Virus record (IMG/VR): IMGVR_UViG_3300046096_000044
Coordinates: 1-37,634 of that record
Reading direction: 5' to 3' (one strand)
DNA: 37,634 nucleotides
Origin: a virus
The notes under the pieces are model-generated. The model saw only the letters and a list, made by a program, of their open reading frames with translations. It was not told the origin of the DNA and ran no database searches. Shown in pieces: positions 66 to 8,919 of this stretch. The translations under genes were made by a program, and so were the position numbers. Position 1 is the first letter of the stretch, and each line of letters starts with the position of its first letter.

Positions 66-437
66 ATGAAAAAAGCACCCAAACACATCATCAATTACAT
101 TCGTGAGCCTGACACATGGGACGCGACCGTTTTTGAGACTCAGATTCGTAGCGAAGTGGAAAGCTCCACAGGCGCCTTGACTGCGAGTGATGAAACGCTA
201 GTGGGAATGTTGGTGATGACCATGCAAAGCCTGATTGACGCAGAGAAGATTATTCAGGTTCAAGGCATGATTGAGCATTACAACTCCGGCCCTGCAACCT
301 CACCCTATTACAAGATACGAACCGAATGTCTCGACAAGGCTATCAAGATACTGGCAGAGCTTGCGCTTGTGGCCCGTGGTCGCCCAAAGAAGACTTCTAC
401 ACCCACTGCCATAGATGAGTTATTCAACACTGCTTGA
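66..437 (+). CDS. terS: terminase small subunit (P27-like)
   Basis: The 123-residue product sits directly upstream of the large terminase and overlaps it by 23 bases, the usual place of the DNA-recognition subunit that binds cos/pac and hands DNA to the packaging motor. Length and helical composition fit the phage P27-type small terminase; the C-terminus carries a basic GRPKK stretch. I chose the ATG at 66 rather than an in-frame TTG at 42 because AAGGGA lies just upstream. That Shine-Dalgarno is part of the 10-base palindrome GGGAATTCCC at 56-65, which could partly mask the start. A TATACT box at 35-40 may be a -10 element, but no good -35 is visible. Confidence 0.75.
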   Translation: MKKAPKHIINYIREPDTWDATVFETQIRSEVESSTGALTASDETLVGMLVMTMQSLIDAEKIIQVQGMIEHYNSGPATSPYYKIRTECLDKAIKILAELALVARGRPKKTSTPTAIDELFNTA

Positions 438-2088
438 ACCTGCGTTTAAGTACGCCACCGCCGTTGTTCGTGGCGACCAACTTGCGTGTGAAGACGTCAA
501 GATTGCTTGTCAGCGATTCTTGGACATGGTTGAGCGCAAAGATGCGCCTTACGAGTTTGTCCCTGCCAAGGCTGAACACATCCTCAAGTTTGCCAAGTTC
601 TGTCGCCATGTCAAAGGGCCGGACGCAGGCAAGTCGATTGAGCTTGAGGGGTTTCAGGTTCTATTTCTTGCGGCGGTGTACGGCTTTCGAAACAAGAAAG
701 ACCATAGTATTCGATGGGTGACGGACGTTATCCTGTTTGTGCCGCGTAAGTCTGGCAAGACAACCCTTGCGTCCATCATTGCCCTATACGAGCTGCTGTT
801 TGGCGAAGCTGGCCCCGAAGTGTTTACCTTGGCGACCAACCGTGAGCAGGCATCAATCTGTTTCGACTCGTCCAAGGCCATCATGGAAAGCATGGCCCCT
901 GAGTTGCAAAGCCGATTCATTCCGTTCCGAAGTGAGCTGAAAAAGGCTGGCGACTCTACATCCACCTATCGCGCCTTGTCTCGTGAAAACCGTAAGACTG
1001 GTGACGGCAAGAACCCATCCTGCGCCATGATTGACGAGGCTGCGCAGATTACCGAGCGCGGCTCAATTGAGGTTTTGCATTCAGGTATGGCCGCGCGTAA
1101 GAACCCCTTGAGGATGTACTTGACGACTGCGAGCTTCACCAAAGAGACAAAGTTCTTTGAGGACTTGAATCATTTTCGTGCTGTGCTGCGTGGCGCCGCA
1201 GAAGATTCGCATCGTTGGTTTGGCTTACTGTACTCCGTAGACCCGGGCGACGAGTGGTCTGACCCTGCTGTGTGGGGCAAGGCAAACCCCATGCTTGGTG
1301 TGTCGGTCACAACCGAGGCCATTCAGCACATGGCTGATGAGGCCAAGAGTAAACCCGCATCCCTTAATGAGTTTTTGTGCAAACAGCTCAACATTTACGT
1401 CAGCTCTAATGCCGCATGGGTCGATCGCCGATATTGGGATGAGTCCGCGGCTGCTTTGCCTGCTGATAAGCCGGAAGCCACGTTTATTGGATTTGACTTG
1501 GCTCATAGCCGAGACTTGAATGCCGTGGTGACGTTGCACAGATATGCCGAGGAAGACTTGTATGCCAAATTCAAGTTCTTCTTGCCCGAGGAGTCGATTG
1601 AGTTAATTCCGAACCATTACAAATCAATCTTTAGTCAGGCCGTGGCATCTGGCATATTGCACTTGACGCCCGGCAACGTGACCGACTTAAACGAAATCGA
1701 ATCCTATATCCGACAAGAGGCGGAGCTGTATGAAGTTAAAGAAATTGGCTACGACCCTTATAACGCTGCTGCTTTGGTGGCTAATCTGTTCTCCTATGGC
1801 CTACCTGTTAAAAAGGTTGGACAGGGCATGGCGGTGTTGTCGAATCCTTCTAAGACGGCTGAACAGCTCATACTCAAAAAAGCTATCAAGCATGACGGAA
1901 ATCCGTTTGTGGGATGGCAATTAGGCAACTGCGAGGTCTATACGGACGTAAACGGCAACGTAAAAGTGAGAAAAAACGAGGCCGACCCATCCGCCAAGGT
2001 GGACGGAATTATCGCCATGATTATGGCTTTGCATTGCCATTTGGATAACGTATTCGTATCAGACTCCTATGGACTACGATTATTTTGA
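415..2088 (+). CDS. terL: terminase large subunit
   Basis: This is the ATPase and nuclease of the packaging motor (Terminase_1/HK97 type), 557 residues, a normal length. The ATPase domain has a Walker A motif PRKSGKT (residues 110-116) and a Walker B CAMIDE (203-208, with D207 and E208). The C-terminal RNase H-like nuclease shows its acidic residues in the contexts FIGFDLAHSRD (D361, D367), GYDPYN (D447) and KVDGII (D530). It translocates DNA into the prohead and cuts concatemers. The start overlaps the end of terS, suggesting translational coupling; the portal gene follows within 31 bases. Confidence 0.95.
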   Translation: MSYSTLLEPAFKYATAVVRGDQLACEDVKIACQRFLDMVERKDAPYEFVPAKAEHILKFAKFCRHVKGPDAGKSIELEGFQVLFLAAVYGFRNKKDHSIRWVTDVILFVPRKSGKTTLASIIALYELLFGEAGPEVFTLATNREQASICFDSSKAIMESMAPELQSRFIPFRSELKKAGDSTSTYRALSRENRKTGDGKNPSCAMIDEAAQITERGSIEVLHSGMAARKNPLRMYLTTASFTKETKFFEDLNHFRAVLRGAAEDSHRWFGLLYSVDPGDEWSDPAVWGKANPMLGVSVTTEAIQHMADEAKSKPASLNEFLCKQLNIYVSSNAAWVDRRYWDESAAALPADKPEATFIGFDLAHSRDLNAVVTLHRYAEEDLYAKFKFFLPEESIELIPNHYKSIFSQAVASGILHLTPGNVTDLNEIESYIRQEAELYEVKEIGYDPYNAAALVANLFSYGLPVKKVGQGMAVLSNPSKTAEQLILKKAIKHDGNPFVGWQLGNCEVYTDVNGNVKVRKNEADPSAKVDGIIAMIMALHCHLDNVFVSDSYGLRLF

Positions 2089-2118
2089 GTGATAACATCA
2101 CGGAAACTAGGAGTTGAT

Positions 2119-3516
2119 ATGGCTATTCTTGACATTTTTAAACGTAAGTCCACGCAAGCCAATGAAAGCAACTCGCTTTTTGGTCAAACGGCTCTTGGCA
2201 ACAACATTGTTTACTCGGGTAGCAATACTCGCCCCACTGTAAACACTCAAGTCCTGTATGTGACAACTTCCAGCACGAATACCGCTGGTCGTCCAATCGA
2301 CATGAGCATGTTGACGCGCAACAGCACCGTCATGGCTTGCGTTGGCGCAAAAGCTCGCGCGTTGGCTCAGTTGCCAATCAAAATCATGGCCGAGGCTGAT
2401 GACGGCTCTTACTTGGATGCGGTCAAAGACAAATCTGTTGGTATCCGCGACAAGAACAAGGCCAAACAAGTTGCAAAGCTGCTAAACAACCCAAACAACT
2501 TTCAATCGAAATATGAGTTTTGGTATCAGTGGCTCATGTGGTTGGAATTGTCTGGCGAAGCGTTTACTTTGTGGTGGAGAGAAGAACAGAAGAACCCATC
2601 ACAGACTCCAATTGAAATGTATGTGTTGGATTCGACGCTGATTGCTGTGACGATCAATCCAGCTCGTTACCCCTCGTATCGACTGTCTACTCCATCCTAC
2701 GGTTTCAGCAAAGACGAGCCTTTGATGGCTCATCAAGTGATGCACGTCAAAGAGGCGGCATGGCAAGGCTCCGCTGGTTTCAACAAGGGCATCTTGGCGG
2801 CTGAATTGGTGACGCTAGATCAAGACATCGACGTTTACGCCAACTTCATCATGCTGAACGGCGCCAAGCCGACTGGTATGTTCACGACTGAGCAGGTTAT
2901 CCCTGATGGCAAATACAAAGAGTTGGCCGCGCGTCTGAAAGAGGCTTGGTCAAGTATGACTGGTAGCCAACGCACCGACGAATCCAAGCCCGGCCAAGGT
3001 ATGTTGCTCGACCAAGGCATGAAGTACACGCCTTTGGATATTCTGACGTTGCAAGATACTCAAGCTGCCGAGTTGAAGATTCAGACCATGAAACGCATTT
3101 GTGGTTTGTTTGGTGTGCCTCCTGCAATGATCGGAATTGCAGACCAGAAGTACAACAACACTCAAACCATGCTTGATGAGTTTTACAAATCAACGATGTA
3201 CCCAACCATCGTGAACGTGCAAGACAAATTGAAGCAGCAACTGTTCAATGGCTATCCATCACTGAGCATTCAGTTCGACACGGCAAACTTTTTGAAGGGC
3301 GCCCCAATTGACCAAATGAATTATGTGAAAGCTGGCGTGGAAGCTGGCATCTTGACTCCAAACGAAGCTCGTGAATATTTGGGTAAGCCCCAAAAAGAAG
3401 GTGGCAACGAATTGAAGCAAGACGCAAAACCAAGTGACCCAATTGCAGGCTCAAGCGCCCAAGATACTGGTGGAGGCGGTGGTCAACAGCGGAATAAATT
3501 AAATATCGGCAAGTAA
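2119..3516 (+). CDS. portal protein (HK97 family)
   Basis: The 465-residue product follows terL and precedes the prohead protease, the canonical portal position. It forms the dodecameric ring at one capsid vertex through which DNA is pumped. The sequence includes the family-typical stretch MKRICGLFGVPPAMIG followed by NNTQTMLDEFYKSTMYP, and a low-complexity Gly/Gln tail (GGGGGQQ). An in-frame GTG exists at 2089, directly after the terL stop, but the ATG at 2119 has TAGGAG six bases upstream and is preferred. The stop codon overlaps the ATG of the next small gene. Confidence 0.93.
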   Translation: MAILDIFKRKSTQANESNSLFGQTALGNNIVYSGSNTRPTVNTQVLYVTTSSTNTAGRPIDMSMLTRNSTVMACVGAKARALAQLPIKIMAEADDGSYLDAVKDKSVGIRDKNKAKQVAKLLNNPNNFQSKYEFWYQWLMWLELSGEAFTLWWREEQKNPSQTPIEMYVLDSTLIAVTINPARYPSYRLSTPSYGFSKDEPLMAHQVMHVKEAAWQGSAGFNKGILAAELVTLDQDIDVYANFIMLNGAKPTGMFTTEQVIPDGKYKELAARLKEAWSSMTGSQRTDESKPGQGMLLDQGMKYTPLDILTLQDTQAAELKIQTMKRICGLFGVPPAMIGIADQKYNNTQTMLDEFYKSTMYPTIVNVQDKLKQQLFNGYPSLSIQFDTANFLKGAPIDQMNYVKAGVEAGILTPNEAREYLGKPQKEGGNELKQDAKPSDPIAGSSAQDTGGGGGQQRNKLNIGK

Positions 3517-3731
3517 TGTCGTTGATTTTTAAGATTATGGTAGCATCGTTGGTAGCAAATAGACCAACTGTTGCGCCGCCCCCAAAGCGCGGCAGACCGC
3601 CAAAAACAATACACGACATTGATTTATCCAAAGTCGATGAGGTAATCCATGACGCAAAACTTGATGATGGTGTGCGAGGCCAAGCTGGTACTCGAAAAAG
3701 CAGACAACGTAGAGCCAACAGGCAATATTGA
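3516..3731 (+). CDS. small basic hypothetical protein
   Basis: This 71-residue ORF starts on an ATG overlapping the portal stop (TAATG) and overlaps the protease gene by 83 bases in another frame. The product is rich in basic residues with an AT-hook-like KRGRPPK segment (about residues 24-30) and an Arg-rich C-terminus (RKSRQRRANRQY). The junction with the portal suggests it is translated, but no family is recognised. It may be a minor head protein, or simply an open frame around the protease ribosome-binding region; the protease Shine-Dalgarno lies inside it. Confidence 0.45.
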   Translation: MSLIFKIMVASLVANRPTVAPPPKRGRPPKTIHDIDLSKVDEVIHDAKLDDGVRGQAGTRKSRQRRANRQY

Positions 3732-4449
3732 AGCCGTTGTCACAACTTGGGGGCCACGCGAAGGCGCTGATGGTCGCAAGTTCAACTACCAACCCGAGGC
3801 ATTTATGCAATGGGCAGAGTCGTTCAGCAAAGCTGGTCGTCCTCTCCCAATGTTCGTAAACCATGACGCCGACTCCATCCCTGTGGGTGAGTGGACATCG
3901 TTTGAGTTTGACGAAACTGGCATGAAAGCCTGCGGTCGTTTGTATGTGAACACCACTCAAGGCTCTGATTTGTATCAAGTGATGAGCGAGTCGCCAAATA
4001 TGTTTGGTGGCGTGTCTGTTGGCGCATACGCCGAAGAATATCAGTGGACAAAAGAAGACGGCACTCCTATGACCGTTGGTTCTGATGACCCATACGAAGA
4101 CGGCTACTTCCAAATCACCAAGGGTGGTTTGCGTGAGGTGTCAGTCGTGATGTACCCAAACAATCCAATGGCCGAAGTGCAAAAGCTGGAATATTTCCGA
4201 GCTGATGGCACTGCCGACCTGAAAGTTTTGGAACAAGCCCTGCGTGATGCTGGTCTATCCAAGAAAGATGCGGTCGCTGCCGCATCTACCTTCAAAAAAG
4301 TGATTGAGCAGCGTGATGCCGTTCAAGAGCCTATTGAAAATGCGACGACTCAGAGCGATTCTGATGCGGAAGCGACCAACGCAGCAATTCTCGAAGCTCT
4401 TGAGCAACGCGAATTGTTAAAACTCCTCGACAAACGCCTGAAAGGTTAA
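3649..4449 (+). CDS. prohead protease (HK97 gp4, peptidase family U35/S78)
   Basis: This serine protease matures the capsid by removing the scaffold domain of the major capsid protein and then itself. The 266-residue sequence shows the herpesvirus-assemblin-like catalytic set in its usual spacing: His72 in MFVNHDADSIPVGEW, Ser123 in GGVSVGAYAEE and an acidic residue in GGLREVSVVMYPNNPMA (E163). The C-terminal third is Glu/Lys-rich and probably the scaffolding/dispensable part. The ATG at 3649 has GAGG seven bases upstream. It lies between portal and major capsid gene, as in HK97. Confidence 0.92.
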   Translation: MTQNLMMVCEAKLVLEKADNVEPTGNIEAVVTTWGPREGADGRKFNYQPEAFMQWAESFSKAGRPLPMFVNHDADSIPVGEWTSFEFDETGMKACGRLYVNTTQGSDLYQVMSESPNMFGGVSVGAYAEEYQWTKEDGTPMTVGSDDPYEDGYFQITKGGLREVSVVMYPNNPMAEVQKLEYFRADGTADLKVLEQALRDAGLSKKDAVAAASTFKKVIEQRDAVQEPIENATTQSDSDAEATNAAILEALEQRELLKLLDKRLKG

Positions 4450-4451
4450 TC

Positions 4452-5795
4452 ATGTCTCAAGTCATTCTCGACAAATTGGATGCCATCGAAGCTAAACAAG
4501 CTGAGAGCATCGTGGCCGTTGAAGCCAAAATCCCTGCCGCCGTTGAAGCCGTTAAAAACGAATTCAGCGAAATGGTTGCCGCTTTGGAGGCCAAAGTTGC
4601 CGCTATTCCTGCTGCCGCAGTCCACAAAGAAAAAGCCAAGTCAGTTCGCGCTGATGTGAACCGTTCTGTCAAAGAACAGCTCAAGGCAATCGCAGAAGGC
4701 AAGTCGTCTTTTGAGAAGCAACTGCAAGTTTTTGCAGACGAGTCTCAAATGCAAGCCTACATGACAGAAGCTTCGGCTCTGACAGGCGGCGGCAATGGTC
4801 AAGGCGGTCGTACTGCTTATGACCCTGTGTTTGCTGCTCTGCGTTTGGCTAACCCAATGCGCGGCGTGTCTCGCACTGTGGCTACCGATGGCTCAAGCTA
4901 TCAGTTCCGCGTGAAGACTGGCAATGCTGGCGCCGCATGGGGCTACGCAATCCAGAACAACGGCGCGGCTACAACTGAAAACACTTCAATCTGGCAATTG
5001 GTTTTGCAAGACTTGAACGTTCAGTTCCCTATCCGTACTGCTGCTCTTGATGACATCGACGGTTTGGAAGCAAACGTGGTTGACGATATGTTGGCTGAAT
5101 TCGCACAAGCCGAAGCTCTGTCGATGATTCAAAACAACGACCAAGGCGCTACCAGCTTGCCTTACGGCGGCTCTAACGGCTTGCGCGGCTTGAATCAGTA
5201 CGCTGGTGCTGCTGCTACCTACGCTGGTGGTTCTACTACTGTGGCTGCTTTTGGCTCGTCTGGCACTGGTTCTACCAGCGGCTTGCACAGCTTGGCAACC
5301 TATGACCAGTTGACAACCAACGGCAACACTGTCGGTGCTGCAAACATCACCTACAAAGACGTTGTGAACTTCATCTACGCTTTGCCACAACAATACTGGA
5401 CTACTGATGCCAAGTTCATCATTAGCCCTGTCCTGTTGGCTCAAATCCGTGGTTTGACAGACAGCAACGGCACTCCTGTGTTTGAGCGTATGTCTCCTCT
5501 GGAAACAAACGGTATTGTTGGCCGCTTGTTGGGCTTTGACGTTGTTGTGAACAAGTATTTGGACACTCCATCGCAAACCGCAACTGGTTCCGCTGGCACA
5601 ACTAGCCTGTTCCCAATGTACTTTGGTGACTTCTCTCGTGGTCACACAATCATTGATCGTTTGAACATGGTTATGCGCCGCTACGACCAGACACAGCCCG
5701 GCTTCATCACCTTCTTTGGTGAAAAACGTCTGGCTACCTCTGTGCGTGACCCTAACGCCATCGTGCGTTATCGCTCAACTGGCACTGCAACCTGA
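4452..5795 (+). CDS. major capsid protein 1 (HK97 fold, with scaffold domain)
   Basis: The 447-residue protein begins with about 100 residues of Ala/Glu/Lys-rich, predicted coiled-coil sequence, matching the N-terminal delta (scaffold) domain that HK97-type proteases remove. The mature shell domain follows from about residue 105, after the linker LTGGGNGQGG. It contains PVFAALRLANPMRGVSR, SIWQLVLQDLNVQFPIRTAALDDIDGLE and the C-terminal QTQPGFITFFGEKRLATSVRDPNAIVRY. It is preceded immediately by the protease and followed by an intrinsic terminator, then by a second capsid paralogue. Codon choice suggests high expression. Confidence 0.95.
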   Translation: MSQVILDKLDAIEAKQAESIVAVEAKIPAAVEAVKNEFSEMVAALEAKVAAIPAAAVHKEKAKSVRADVNRSVKEQLKAIAEGKSSFEKQLQVFADESQMQAYMTEASALTGGGNGQGGRTAYDPVFAALRLANPMRGVSRTVATDGSSYQFRVKTGNAGAAWGYAIQNNGAATTENTSIWQLVLQDLNVQFPIRTAALDDIDGLEANVVDDMLAEFAQAEALSMIQNNDQGATSLPYGGSNGLRGLNQYAGAAATYAGGSTTVAAFGSSGTGSTSGLHSLATYDQLTTNGNTVGAANITYKDVVNFIYALPQQYWTTDAKFIISPVLLAQIRGLTDSNGTPVFERMSPLETNGIVGRLLGFDVVVNKYLDTPSQTATGSAGTTSLFPMYFGDFSRGHTIIDRLNMVMRRYDQTQPGFITFFGEKRLATSVRDPNAIVRYRSTGTAT

Positions 5796-5806
5796 TAGTT
5801 GCCTTG

Positions 5807-5831
5807 AAGGGGCTTCGGCCCCTTCTCTTTT
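5807..5831 (+). terminator. intrinsic terminator/attenuator between the two capsid genes
   Basis: A perfect 7-bp stem AAGGGGC/GCCCCTT (5807-5813 with 5818-5824) is capped by the very stable TTCG tetraloop and followed by CTCTTTT. It begins 12 bases after the stop of the first capsid gene and 20 bases before the start of the second. It is expected to reduce read-through or to act as a 3' stabiliser of the abundant capsid mRNA. Confidence 0.8.
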
Positions 5832-5850
5832 AACTCTCATTGGAACAACC

Positions 5851-6867
5851 ATGACTATCACCGAAAAAATCCTGAACGGCATTAAGCAAGCCATTACCGA
5901 AGGTGGCAAAGTCACCATTGACCTGAAAGAAGCCTCTGCAATCACTGGTTCTGGTTCGGGTGTTGGTGGTAATGTTGTATTCGACGATGCGTTTGCCGCT
6001 CTGCGTCAAGCAAATCCATTGCGTCAAGGCTCTCGCCAAATTGCCGTGAACGGCTCTGATGCTCAATTCGTTGCCAAGACTGGTAACGCTGCAAACTCCA
6101 CAAATCCTTGGGGTTACGAATTTACTCCCAACTCAGGTTCTCCTGATGTTGATACGTCCATTTGGCAATTGCCAGTGCGCGTGTTGGTTGCACAGCTCCC
6201 AATCCGTACTGCTGTTCTGTCAGATGTGAACGCCCTTGAATCTACCTTGGTTGAAGACTTGGCTCTTGAGTTCGCTCAATTGGAAGGTCAATCAATGATT
6301 TTGAACGACGACCAATCTGGTTCGACCACAGACGCCACTGGCGCTGAGTACGGTCTGCGCGGCTTGGATAGTTACCCATCTGGTTCCGTGAGTGCCTACG
6401 GCTCAAGCGGCACCGCAATGACTGATGGCTTGCATGACATTGCCACCGTGTCTTTGGGCGGCGTTGCTGTGACATACAACAAGATTGTTGCTGCCGCAAA
6501 TGCTTTGCCTGCTCAGTATTGGTCTTTGGAAAGCACAGCTTGGCACATGAGTCCAGCAATGATTCTGGCCTTGCGTCAGTTGAAAGATACCTCTGGTATG
6601 CCTTTGTTCTTGGAGATCGGGGATTCTGATGGCGCGGCTGTTGGTCGCGTCTTTGGTTGGCCTGTTATTCCAAACCCATACCTTTCTGCTGATTTCCCTG
6701 TCTACTTGGCAAACTGGAATCGCTTTTTGACTATTGGTGACACCGAGCAAATGAATGTTCAAATGTATGAGCAAACCAAGCCCGGCTTCATCACCCTGTA
6801 CGCAGAAAAACGTCTGGTAAGCTCTGTGCGTGACCCGTTCGCTGGTGTTCGTATCAGCGCAGCCTAA
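5851..6867 (+). CDS. second major-capsid-like protein (HK97 fold, no scaffold domain)
   Basis: The 338-residue product aligns along its whole length with the mature part of the preceding capsid protein. Shared blocks include FAALRQANPLRQGSRQ, DTSIWQLPVRVLVAQLPIRTAVL, LALEFAQLEGQSMI and TKPGFITLYAEKRLVSSVRDPFAGVR. It begins where the scaffold domain of the first would end, so it lacks the delta domain. A longer open frame extends upstream to 5716 inside the first capsid gene, but the ATG at 5851 fits the protein homology; the terminator hairpin lies in that upstream part. It could form a distinct capsomer (penton versus hexon) or be co-assembled as a minor shell subunit. Confidence 0.9.
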   Translation: MTITEKILNGIKQAITEGGKVTIDLKEASAITGSGSGVGGNVVFDDAFAALRQANPLRQGSRQIAVNGSDAQFVAKTGNAANSTNPWGYEFTPNSGSPDVDTSIWQLPVRVLVAQLPIRTAVLSDVNALESTLVEDLALEFAQLEGQSMILNDDQSGSTTDATGAEYGLRGLDSYPSGSVSAYGSSGTAMTDGLHDIATVSLGGVAVTYNKIVAAANALPAQYWSLESTAWHMSPAMILALRQLKDTSGMPLFLEIGDSDGAAVGRVFGWPVIPNPYLSADFPVYLANWNRFLTIGDTEQMNVQMYEQTKPGFITLYAEKRLVSSVRDPFAGVRISAA

Positions 6868-6877
6868 GAGGTAAAAA

Positions 6878-7549
6878 ATGTCCGCTGATACACAACTCGG
6901 TTACTTGAATTACGGTGCGCCAACGCGCAATCCGTTCAACTACACAAAGACAGAGCAAATCAGTCGCGACATTGCTACGCCTTGGCTAACAATGGATGAA
7001 GTCACCAATCAGTTGAACCTGTTTGATGACGAGAGCCAAGATGGTTATTTGGCTGGCCTTGAAGTGGCTGTTCGGATGACTATCGAGGACTTCCTCGGTA
7101 TGTCCATCTTCCCAACGTCATATCGTGTTTGGTATAACGCCGCAAGCTTGTACGGAACACCTTTAACATTGGACTTGCCAGAAGTCAGTCAGAACTCAAA
7201 TCCAATTTTGTCTGGCGTGACTGTGAATGCGGTCAAGTATTGGAATGACAACAACCCTCCGCAGTTAATCACTGTGGACGTGTCTGAGTATTACTACGAC
7301 CCATCTGGCAACAAAGTGGTTGTGGCAAATTTGCCCACGAACATCAACAGCTCGATGACGGCTCCTGTGATTTGCGAGTACACAACAGCGGCAAACCCCT
7401 TGGCGGCTTACCCCGTAATTAAACAGGCTGGTTTGCTGTTGTTGACTCACCTCTACAACAATCGTAGCGATACAACAGGCCCGATTCAGCACAACATTCC
7501 TTGGGGTGTTCAATGCTTGCTTCGTCCTTACAAGCCATTGGTGATGTGA
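6878..7549 (+). CDS. head-tail connector (phiE125 gp8/HK97 gp6-like)
   Basis: The 223-residue protein follows the capsid genes and precedes a head-closure gene, the position of the connector ring that attaches under the portal. The fold family is suggested by WLTMDEVTNQL near residue 36, the helix AGLEVAVRMTIEDFLG and a C-terminal hydrophobic helix IKQAGLLLLTHLYNNR followed by GVQCLLRPYKP, typical of phage conserved protein gp8-type connectors. A ribosome binding site AGAGG precedes the ATG. Its stop abuts the next start directly. Confidence 0.8.
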   Translation: MSADTQLGYLNYGAPTRNPFNYTKTEQISRDIATPWLTMDEVTNQLNLFDDESQDGYLAGLEVAVRMTIEDFLGMSIFPTSYRVWYNAASLYGTPLTLDLPEVSQNSNPILSGVTVNAVKYWNDNNPPQLITVDVSEYYYDPSGNKVVVANLPTNINSSMTAPVICEYTTAANPLAAYPVIKQAGLLLLTHLYNNRSDTTGPIQHNIPWGVQCLLRPYKPLVM

Positions 7550-8870: not shown

Positions 8871-8876
8871 AAATAC

Positions 8877-8906
8877 AAAGCCTCGACATTAAGTTGCCGA
8901 GGCTTT
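8877..8906 (+). terminator. hairpin after the tail tube gene
   Basis: A perfect 9-bp inverted repeat AAAGCCTCG/CGAGGCTTT (8877-8885 with 8898-8906) with a 12-base loop begins 7 bases after the tube stop. It ends in only three Ts, so termination may be partial. It also abuts the start region of the next small gene. Confidence 0.65.
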
Positions 8907-8919
8907 GGTTCCAAAATAT

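Follow-up and report, generated by a model that had tools for sequence, protein, structure and literature searches.

The stretch of DNA analysed here (the window) is the complete 37,634-base virus record IMGVR_UViG_3300046096_000044 (positions 1–37,634) and belongs to a tailed phage. Its genes run in the order terminase, portal, S78 prohead protease, two capsid genes, connector and tail (Table 1). The two capsid genes, referred to here as MCP1 and MCP2, occupy different reading frames and are separated by a stop codon. Both products score well above the 24.2-bit cut-off of the Pfam Phage_capsid family PF05065 (MCP1, 106.8 bits over residues 124–440; MCP2, 80 bits over residues 48–329), and each is the other's closest relative: MCP2 residues 13–334 align with MCP1 residues 92–439 at 41% identity (BLASTP, 213 bits, E 3e-70). 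These matches confirm the proposal of a first-pass annotation that tandem HK97-fold capsid paralogues are encoded at this position.

Table 1. Features of the head-gene region (window coordinates)
Feature	Position	Strand	Basis or remark
Terminase large subunit	415..2088	+	phrog_9, E 1.8e-131
Portal protein	2089..3516	+	phrog_12, E 6.5e-65
Prohead protease, Peptidase_S78 type	3649..4449	+	PF04586, 41.6 bits; phrog_80 head maturation protease
MCP1, HK97-fold major capsid protein with N-terminal scaffold (delta-like) domain, 447 aa	4452..5795	+	PF05065
MCP1 residues 1–105, predicted helical scaffold domain	4452..4766	+	Predicted helices 3–51, 65–81, 97–108
MCP1 EASALTGG motif, residues 106–113	4767..4790	+	Conserved in both families
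MCP1 axial (A) domain, approximate	5352..5642	+	32% identity to MCP2, extra loops
GC-rich hairpin GAAGGGGC-TTCG-GCCCCTTC with T-rich tail, intrinsic-terminator-like, between MCP1 and MCP2	5806..5832	+	Conserved
MCP2, HK97-fold capsid paralogue without scaffold domain, 338 aa	5851..6867	+	PF05065
MCP2 residues 1–26, short N-terminal extension, predicted helix 3–17	5851..5928	+	AF2 model
MCP2 EASAITGS motif, residues 27–34	5929..5952	+	Counterpart of MCP1 motif
MCP2 axial (A) domain, approximate	6475..6726	+	Predicted secondary structure
Head-tail adaptor	6878..7549	+	phrog_442, E 1.3e-8

MCP1 has the layout of an HK97-type capsid protein: its first 100 or so residues form a predicted helical domain, and an S78 protease is encoded upstream. 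This scaffold domain is confined to the first protein, as the annotation had claimed, and finds no counterpart in MCP2 apart from a short N-terminus. The annotation had further described MCP2 as matching the mature part of MCP1 along its full length and lacking about 100 residues of scaffold. The paralogy stands, but MCP2 carries an N-terminal extension of its own: about 105 residues precede the common EASA(L/I)T motif in MCP1 and about 26 in MCP2, a net deficit of about 80. The motif is a candidate processing region, or start of the N-arm, and the S78 protease is presumed to act on MCP1 and perhaps on MCP2 too.

Residues L8, I11 and E27 of MCP2 are invariant among 60 sequences. Homology of its N-terminal helix to the first MCP1 scaffold helix is unsupported, with a mean ungapped score of 15.5 against 13.8 +/- 3.6 for shuffles. 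MCP2 begins with the ATG at 5851, and all complete relatives begin with ATG. A longer version starting with TTG at 5716 (the mechanical ORF 5716–6867) was rejected, because it would overlap MCP1 and because every complete relative starts at the ATG equivalent to 5851.

Predicted folds and domain divergence

Structure models of each protein alone were computed with AF2 from alignments built solely of window and contig sequences. The MCP2 model (pLDDT 72.8) superposes on the Rhodobacter capsulatus gene transfer agent (GTA) capsid with a VIA Z of 20.7 and an rmsd of 4.5 over 253 aligned residues; confidence is low for the MCP1 model (pLDDT 58.1), which is likewise nearest to the GTA capsid (VIA Z 15.7). 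Both models are closest to this protein and to HK97-type capsids, so that the HK97 fold assumed by the annotation is predicted for MCP1 and MCP2 alike.

The N-arm, E-loop, P and A domains are all complete in MCP2. Between the paralogues, identity falls from 58% in the N-arm to 49% in the spine helix and P region, 48% in the C-terminal P strands and 32% in the A domain, where about 14 alignment columns are gapped and MCP1 has extra loops (domain limits are approximate and drawn from predicted secondary structure). The A domain sets capsomer packing, and its divergence could reflect separate capsomer roles. However, few regions vary more than this domain within either family (67% and 56% identity); the argument from capsomers loses weight, and the divergence is suggestive only.

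The tandem pair in related phages

We assembled 405 loci from six viral-contig scans, one genome-contig scan and a few loci found with other tools. Many are overlapping fetches of the same contig as another locus, and together they hold 185 distinct intergenic sequences. A plus-strand profile scan detected MCP1 followed by MCP2 in 382 of the 405, which are all of the 382 loci with room for both genes. Another 20 contain a single gene, every one truncated by a contig end, and three from the genome search, not being oriented to the plus strand, went unscored. Contig ends aside, no relative among the 405 loci has MCP1 without MCP2. The pairing is therefore far beyond chance; the tandem homologues that the annotation had proposed to seek in relatives are present throughout, and the loss of the second gene in close relatives, which it had named as a refuting outcome, is not seen in any of the 382 loci with room for both.

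In loci up to L250, MCP1 spans 437–474 aa and MCP2 336–357 aa. The gap between the genes is 47–77 nt over all loci (50–77 nt up to L250), a five-locus fusion sub-lineage excepted. The same pair in the same order occurs in a cultured isolate, Methylophilaceae phage P19250A (KX815270), whose host is Methylophilaceae IMCC19250, at 62% and 56% identity to the window proteins. Its record labels the two products 'gene transfer agent capsid protein' and 'hypothetical protein', and the pair goes unremarked there.

Locus L212 lies in a genome titled a Betaproteobacteria MAG (G001). A tandem-capsid census of 369 genomes of the same class listed no further pair, but it missed G001's own second gene, and its negative result therefore carries no weight. 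A search of those 369 genomes for intermediate single-MCP relatives gave one distant match (E 3e-7).

Several individual loci deserve separate mention. In the fusion sub-lineage (L328, L329, L331, L332 and L333; e.g. L329:5369-5671), about 100 aa matching phrog_2859 are fused in frame to the N-terminus of MCP2, a possible replacement prodomain; this module is also found near the start of a long capsid protein in Synechococcus phage S-CBS1 and in Roseobacter CRP phages. On one 75,987-bp contig (IMGVR_UViG_3300022748_000017; G005/L150/L203), a second, different tandem capsid pair lies about 40 kb from the first, which suggests two joined phage genomes, perhaps a chimeric assembly. A capsid-pair phage contig (L215, JAHEYD010000010.1) sits inside a MAG labelled Candidatus Nitrosotalea, an archaeon, probably through a binning error.

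A terminator-like hairpin between the capsid genes

A GC-rich hairpin can be folded from each of the 185 distinct intergenic sequences. In 180 the stem runs unbroken for six or more pairs, four or more of them G-C (compared with 67 of 1850 shuffled sequences), and in the other five it is broken by an internal loop. Under a strict terminator rule combining a hairpin with a U-rich tail, 153 of 185 qualify; the same rule passes 6 of 3700 shuffles and, elsewhere in these loci, 26 of 3603 windows. The hairpin persists while its stem and loop sequences vary widely among lineages. It would leave MCP2 on the low-output side.

Hairpins also follow the capsid gene in four of five distant single-MCP outgroup phages (VW-6S, Bcep176, Cd and SfIV), and the element may therefore be an ancestral, inherited post-capsid feature. 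It lies ahead of every tail gene as well, that of the abundant major tail protein among them, so any effect would not have to be specific to MCP2. Elsewhere in the window, a strong 13-pair terminator-like hairpin on the minus strand (8876–8907) adjoins the end of the presumed major tail protein gene (8870) and is possibly a bidirectional terminator.

Phylogeny, selection and codon use

MCP1 and MCP2 sequences form two clean clades separated by a branch of 1.15 substitutions per site (split support 1.0). When five single-MCP outgroups are added, the two families cluster together on a long branch (SH-aLRT 97.3, UFBoot 79), a grouping more in keeping with duplication than with a capsid gene taken in from outside.

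Both genes are under strong purifying selection, with median dN/dS of 0.12–0.14 for MCP1 and 0.10–0.13 for MCP2. The equality of these values indicates that MCP2 is not decaying. It bears directly on the idea that MCP2 is a duplicate without a role, or a leftover of mosaic recombination. Some pairs do differ in their identity to the window: in L087, MCP1 is 95% and MCP2 64% identical to the window proteins, which implies that the two genes recombine apart. Yet zero losses in 382 loci and a dN/dS near 0.1 leave this explanation with next to no probability, and we disfavour it. As a separate observation, three loci (L087, L088 and L074) have an MCP1 about 95% identical to that of the window and an MCP2 64–83% identical, with recombination breakpoints between the capsid genes.

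The pattern of selection also speaks to a role for MCP2 in assembly alone, as a scaffold-less decoy or a regulator of size. Such a factor would act on the procapsid and then be lost from it, or would stay in a few copies near the portal. MCP2 lacks the domain needed for HK97-type capsid assembly and is encoded past the terminator, among low-copy head-tail genes, both of which would suit such a factor. Its complete set of N-arm, E-loop, P and A domains and its MCP1-like purifying selection are instead what a lattice subunit would be expected to show, and we regard an assembly-only role as unlikely.

MCP2 diverges faster between lineages than MCP1 (mean tree distance 0.73 versus 0.42). The distance matrices of the two families are correlated (r 0.35, Mantel p 0.001), as expected for co-evolving or co-inherited partners. 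Within the window, MCP1 has the strongest codon bias (Nc 37.7), followed by the presumed major tail protein (38.5) and MCP2 (43.3), with other genes at 45–59; the rank of MCP2 fits a well-expressed yet less abundant structural protein. One could also read the pair the other way round, with MCP2 as the principal protein of the mature head and MCP1 as a minor, scaffold-carrying subunit that nucleates assembly, given that both proteins have the predicted HK97 fold and that the codon bias of MCP2 is fairly strong too. The stronger bias of MCP1, its place ahead of the hairpin and its slower evolution all run counter to this reversal, which strikes us as very unlikely.

Comparison with known HK97-fold systems

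Phage T4 builds its hexons from gp23 and its vertices from gp24, and these, like MCP1 and MCP2, are two HK97-fold paralogues; gp24 probably arose by duplication of gp23 (PMC9958956). The T4 protease trims 65 residues off gp23 and 10 off gp24, and of the mutations that bypass gp24 some fall in the gp23 A domain (PMC9958956). The long and short N-terminal extensions of MCP1 and MCP2 (about 105 and 26 residues) repeat this asymmetry at the sequence level, so that the gp23/gp24 analogy drawn by the first-pass annotation turns out stronger than it had claimed.

The two systems also differ. T4, a large prolate myovirus, has its scaffold as a separate core, whereas the phages described here have genomes of 37–40 kb and a scaffold fused to MCP1. 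Identity between the paralogues is 17–20% in T4 (PMC9958956, PMC12407261) and 41% here. MCP1 and MCP2 match PF05065, unlike the T4 pair. At the thresholds used, their family matches comprised PF05065, phrog_10, phrog_15928 and phrog_617 and included no T4 capsid family, which argues that the duplication was independent of the one behind gp23 and gp24.

HK97 itself has the same portal, S78 protease and capsid gene order and a scaffold domain of 103 residues (PMC10275583). HK97 and the single-MCP outgroups that we examined have one capsid gene, whereas in the present lineage a scaffold-less paralogue follows. By both sequence (MCP1 profile E 2.2e-8) and fold, the nearest solved relative is the GTA capsid protein Rcc01687 of R. 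capsulatus, for which we know of no tandem partner. A search of the open-licence literature found no earlier description of a tandem or second major capsid protein in a siphovirus, consistent with the annotation's view that an asymmetric pair of this kind is unusual.

Family 2B two-component encapsulins, such as that of Streptomyces lydicus, offer another comparison. Like the present pair, they are HK97-fold paralogues encoded together, and they co-assemble into one shell with variable composition and irregular tiling (PMC12407261). They are bacterial compartments rather than viruses and lack maturation by scaffold and protease. Their behaviour is nonetheless a precedent for the main rival to the interpretation that we prefer, in which MCP1 and MCP2 would share hexamers and pentamers in variable or patterned mixtures and MCP2 would dilute the scaffold domains, making room inside the shell or setting its size. 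HK97-type capsids carry one scaffold domain per subunit (PMC10275583), and 41% identity, far above that of gp23 and gp24, makes hetero-contacts plausible. Against free mixing around one axis is the A domain, which together with its loops is the part that differs most between the paralogues, and the conserved hairpin suggests unequal dosage. We consider shared capsomers possible, if doubtful.

A proposed division of labour

The reading that we favour is a T4-like one, with which the long/short asymmetry, the dosage element and the A-domain divergence fit. The major capsid gene would have been duplicated long ago in this siphovirus lineage, and the two copies would then have divided the labour. 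MCP1, having kept the scaffold domain, would be made in excess, nucleate the procapsid around the portal and form the hexons. The hairpin 3' of MCP1 would stop or trim much of the message and so lower the level of MCP2.

Deprived of its scaffold domain, the HK97 capsid protein aggregates (PMC10275583), and MCP2 is thus probably unable to assemble alone and would have to join a procapsid organized by MCP1. It would enter through conserved peripheral-domain contacts and, by analogy with gp24 beside gp23, would most likely occupy the eleven non-portal five-fold vertices; its place in the virion is thus probably the pentons. The common protease would then strip the scaffold from MCP1 and perhaps the short extension from MCP2.

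A T=7 shell is usual for genomes near 40 kb, and with this geometry 11 pentons would amount to 55 MCP2 per 360 MCP1. The relative amounts, co-assembly, processing and vertex location of the two proteins are what we infer, and we give the whole model (duplication, hexons and scaffold-driven assembly by MCP1, and a low-copy MCP2 most likely at pentons) a probability of about 0.5. The earlier interpretation is partly supported: the tandem paralogy, the scaffold on the first protein alone and the unusual nature of the pair hold, and a place for MCP2 in the virion, at the pentons, is the likelier reading. The intergenic hairpin, the N-terminal extension of MCP2 and the fact that the pair defines a large environmental lineage including an isolate go beyond it.

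Significance

In almost all HK97-fold shells a single flexible protein supplies both the pentamers and the hexamers. According to a 2025 paper, T4 is the only virus known to assign distinct roles to two HK97-fold proteins (PMC12407261). The pair described here looks like an independent second case of a T4-like two-protein shell. We judge it slightly better than an even bet that this is a second, independently evolved lineage with two HK97-fold proteins in separate roles, in which assembly of MCP2 depends on the scaffold of MCP1 and a terminator hairpin sets dosage. Two-protein HK97 shells are not new as such; what is new is the lineage, the asymmetry of a scaffold fused to one partner, and the hairpin.

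The lineage consists of small siphoviruses known mostly from environmental metagenomes. With a large environmental phage group, a cultured isolate and paralogues at 41% identity, it offers a simpler and less diverged second system than T4, one in which to study how a duplicated capsid protein comes to divide into hexon and penton forms, and whether two such proteins can share a single scaffold domain.
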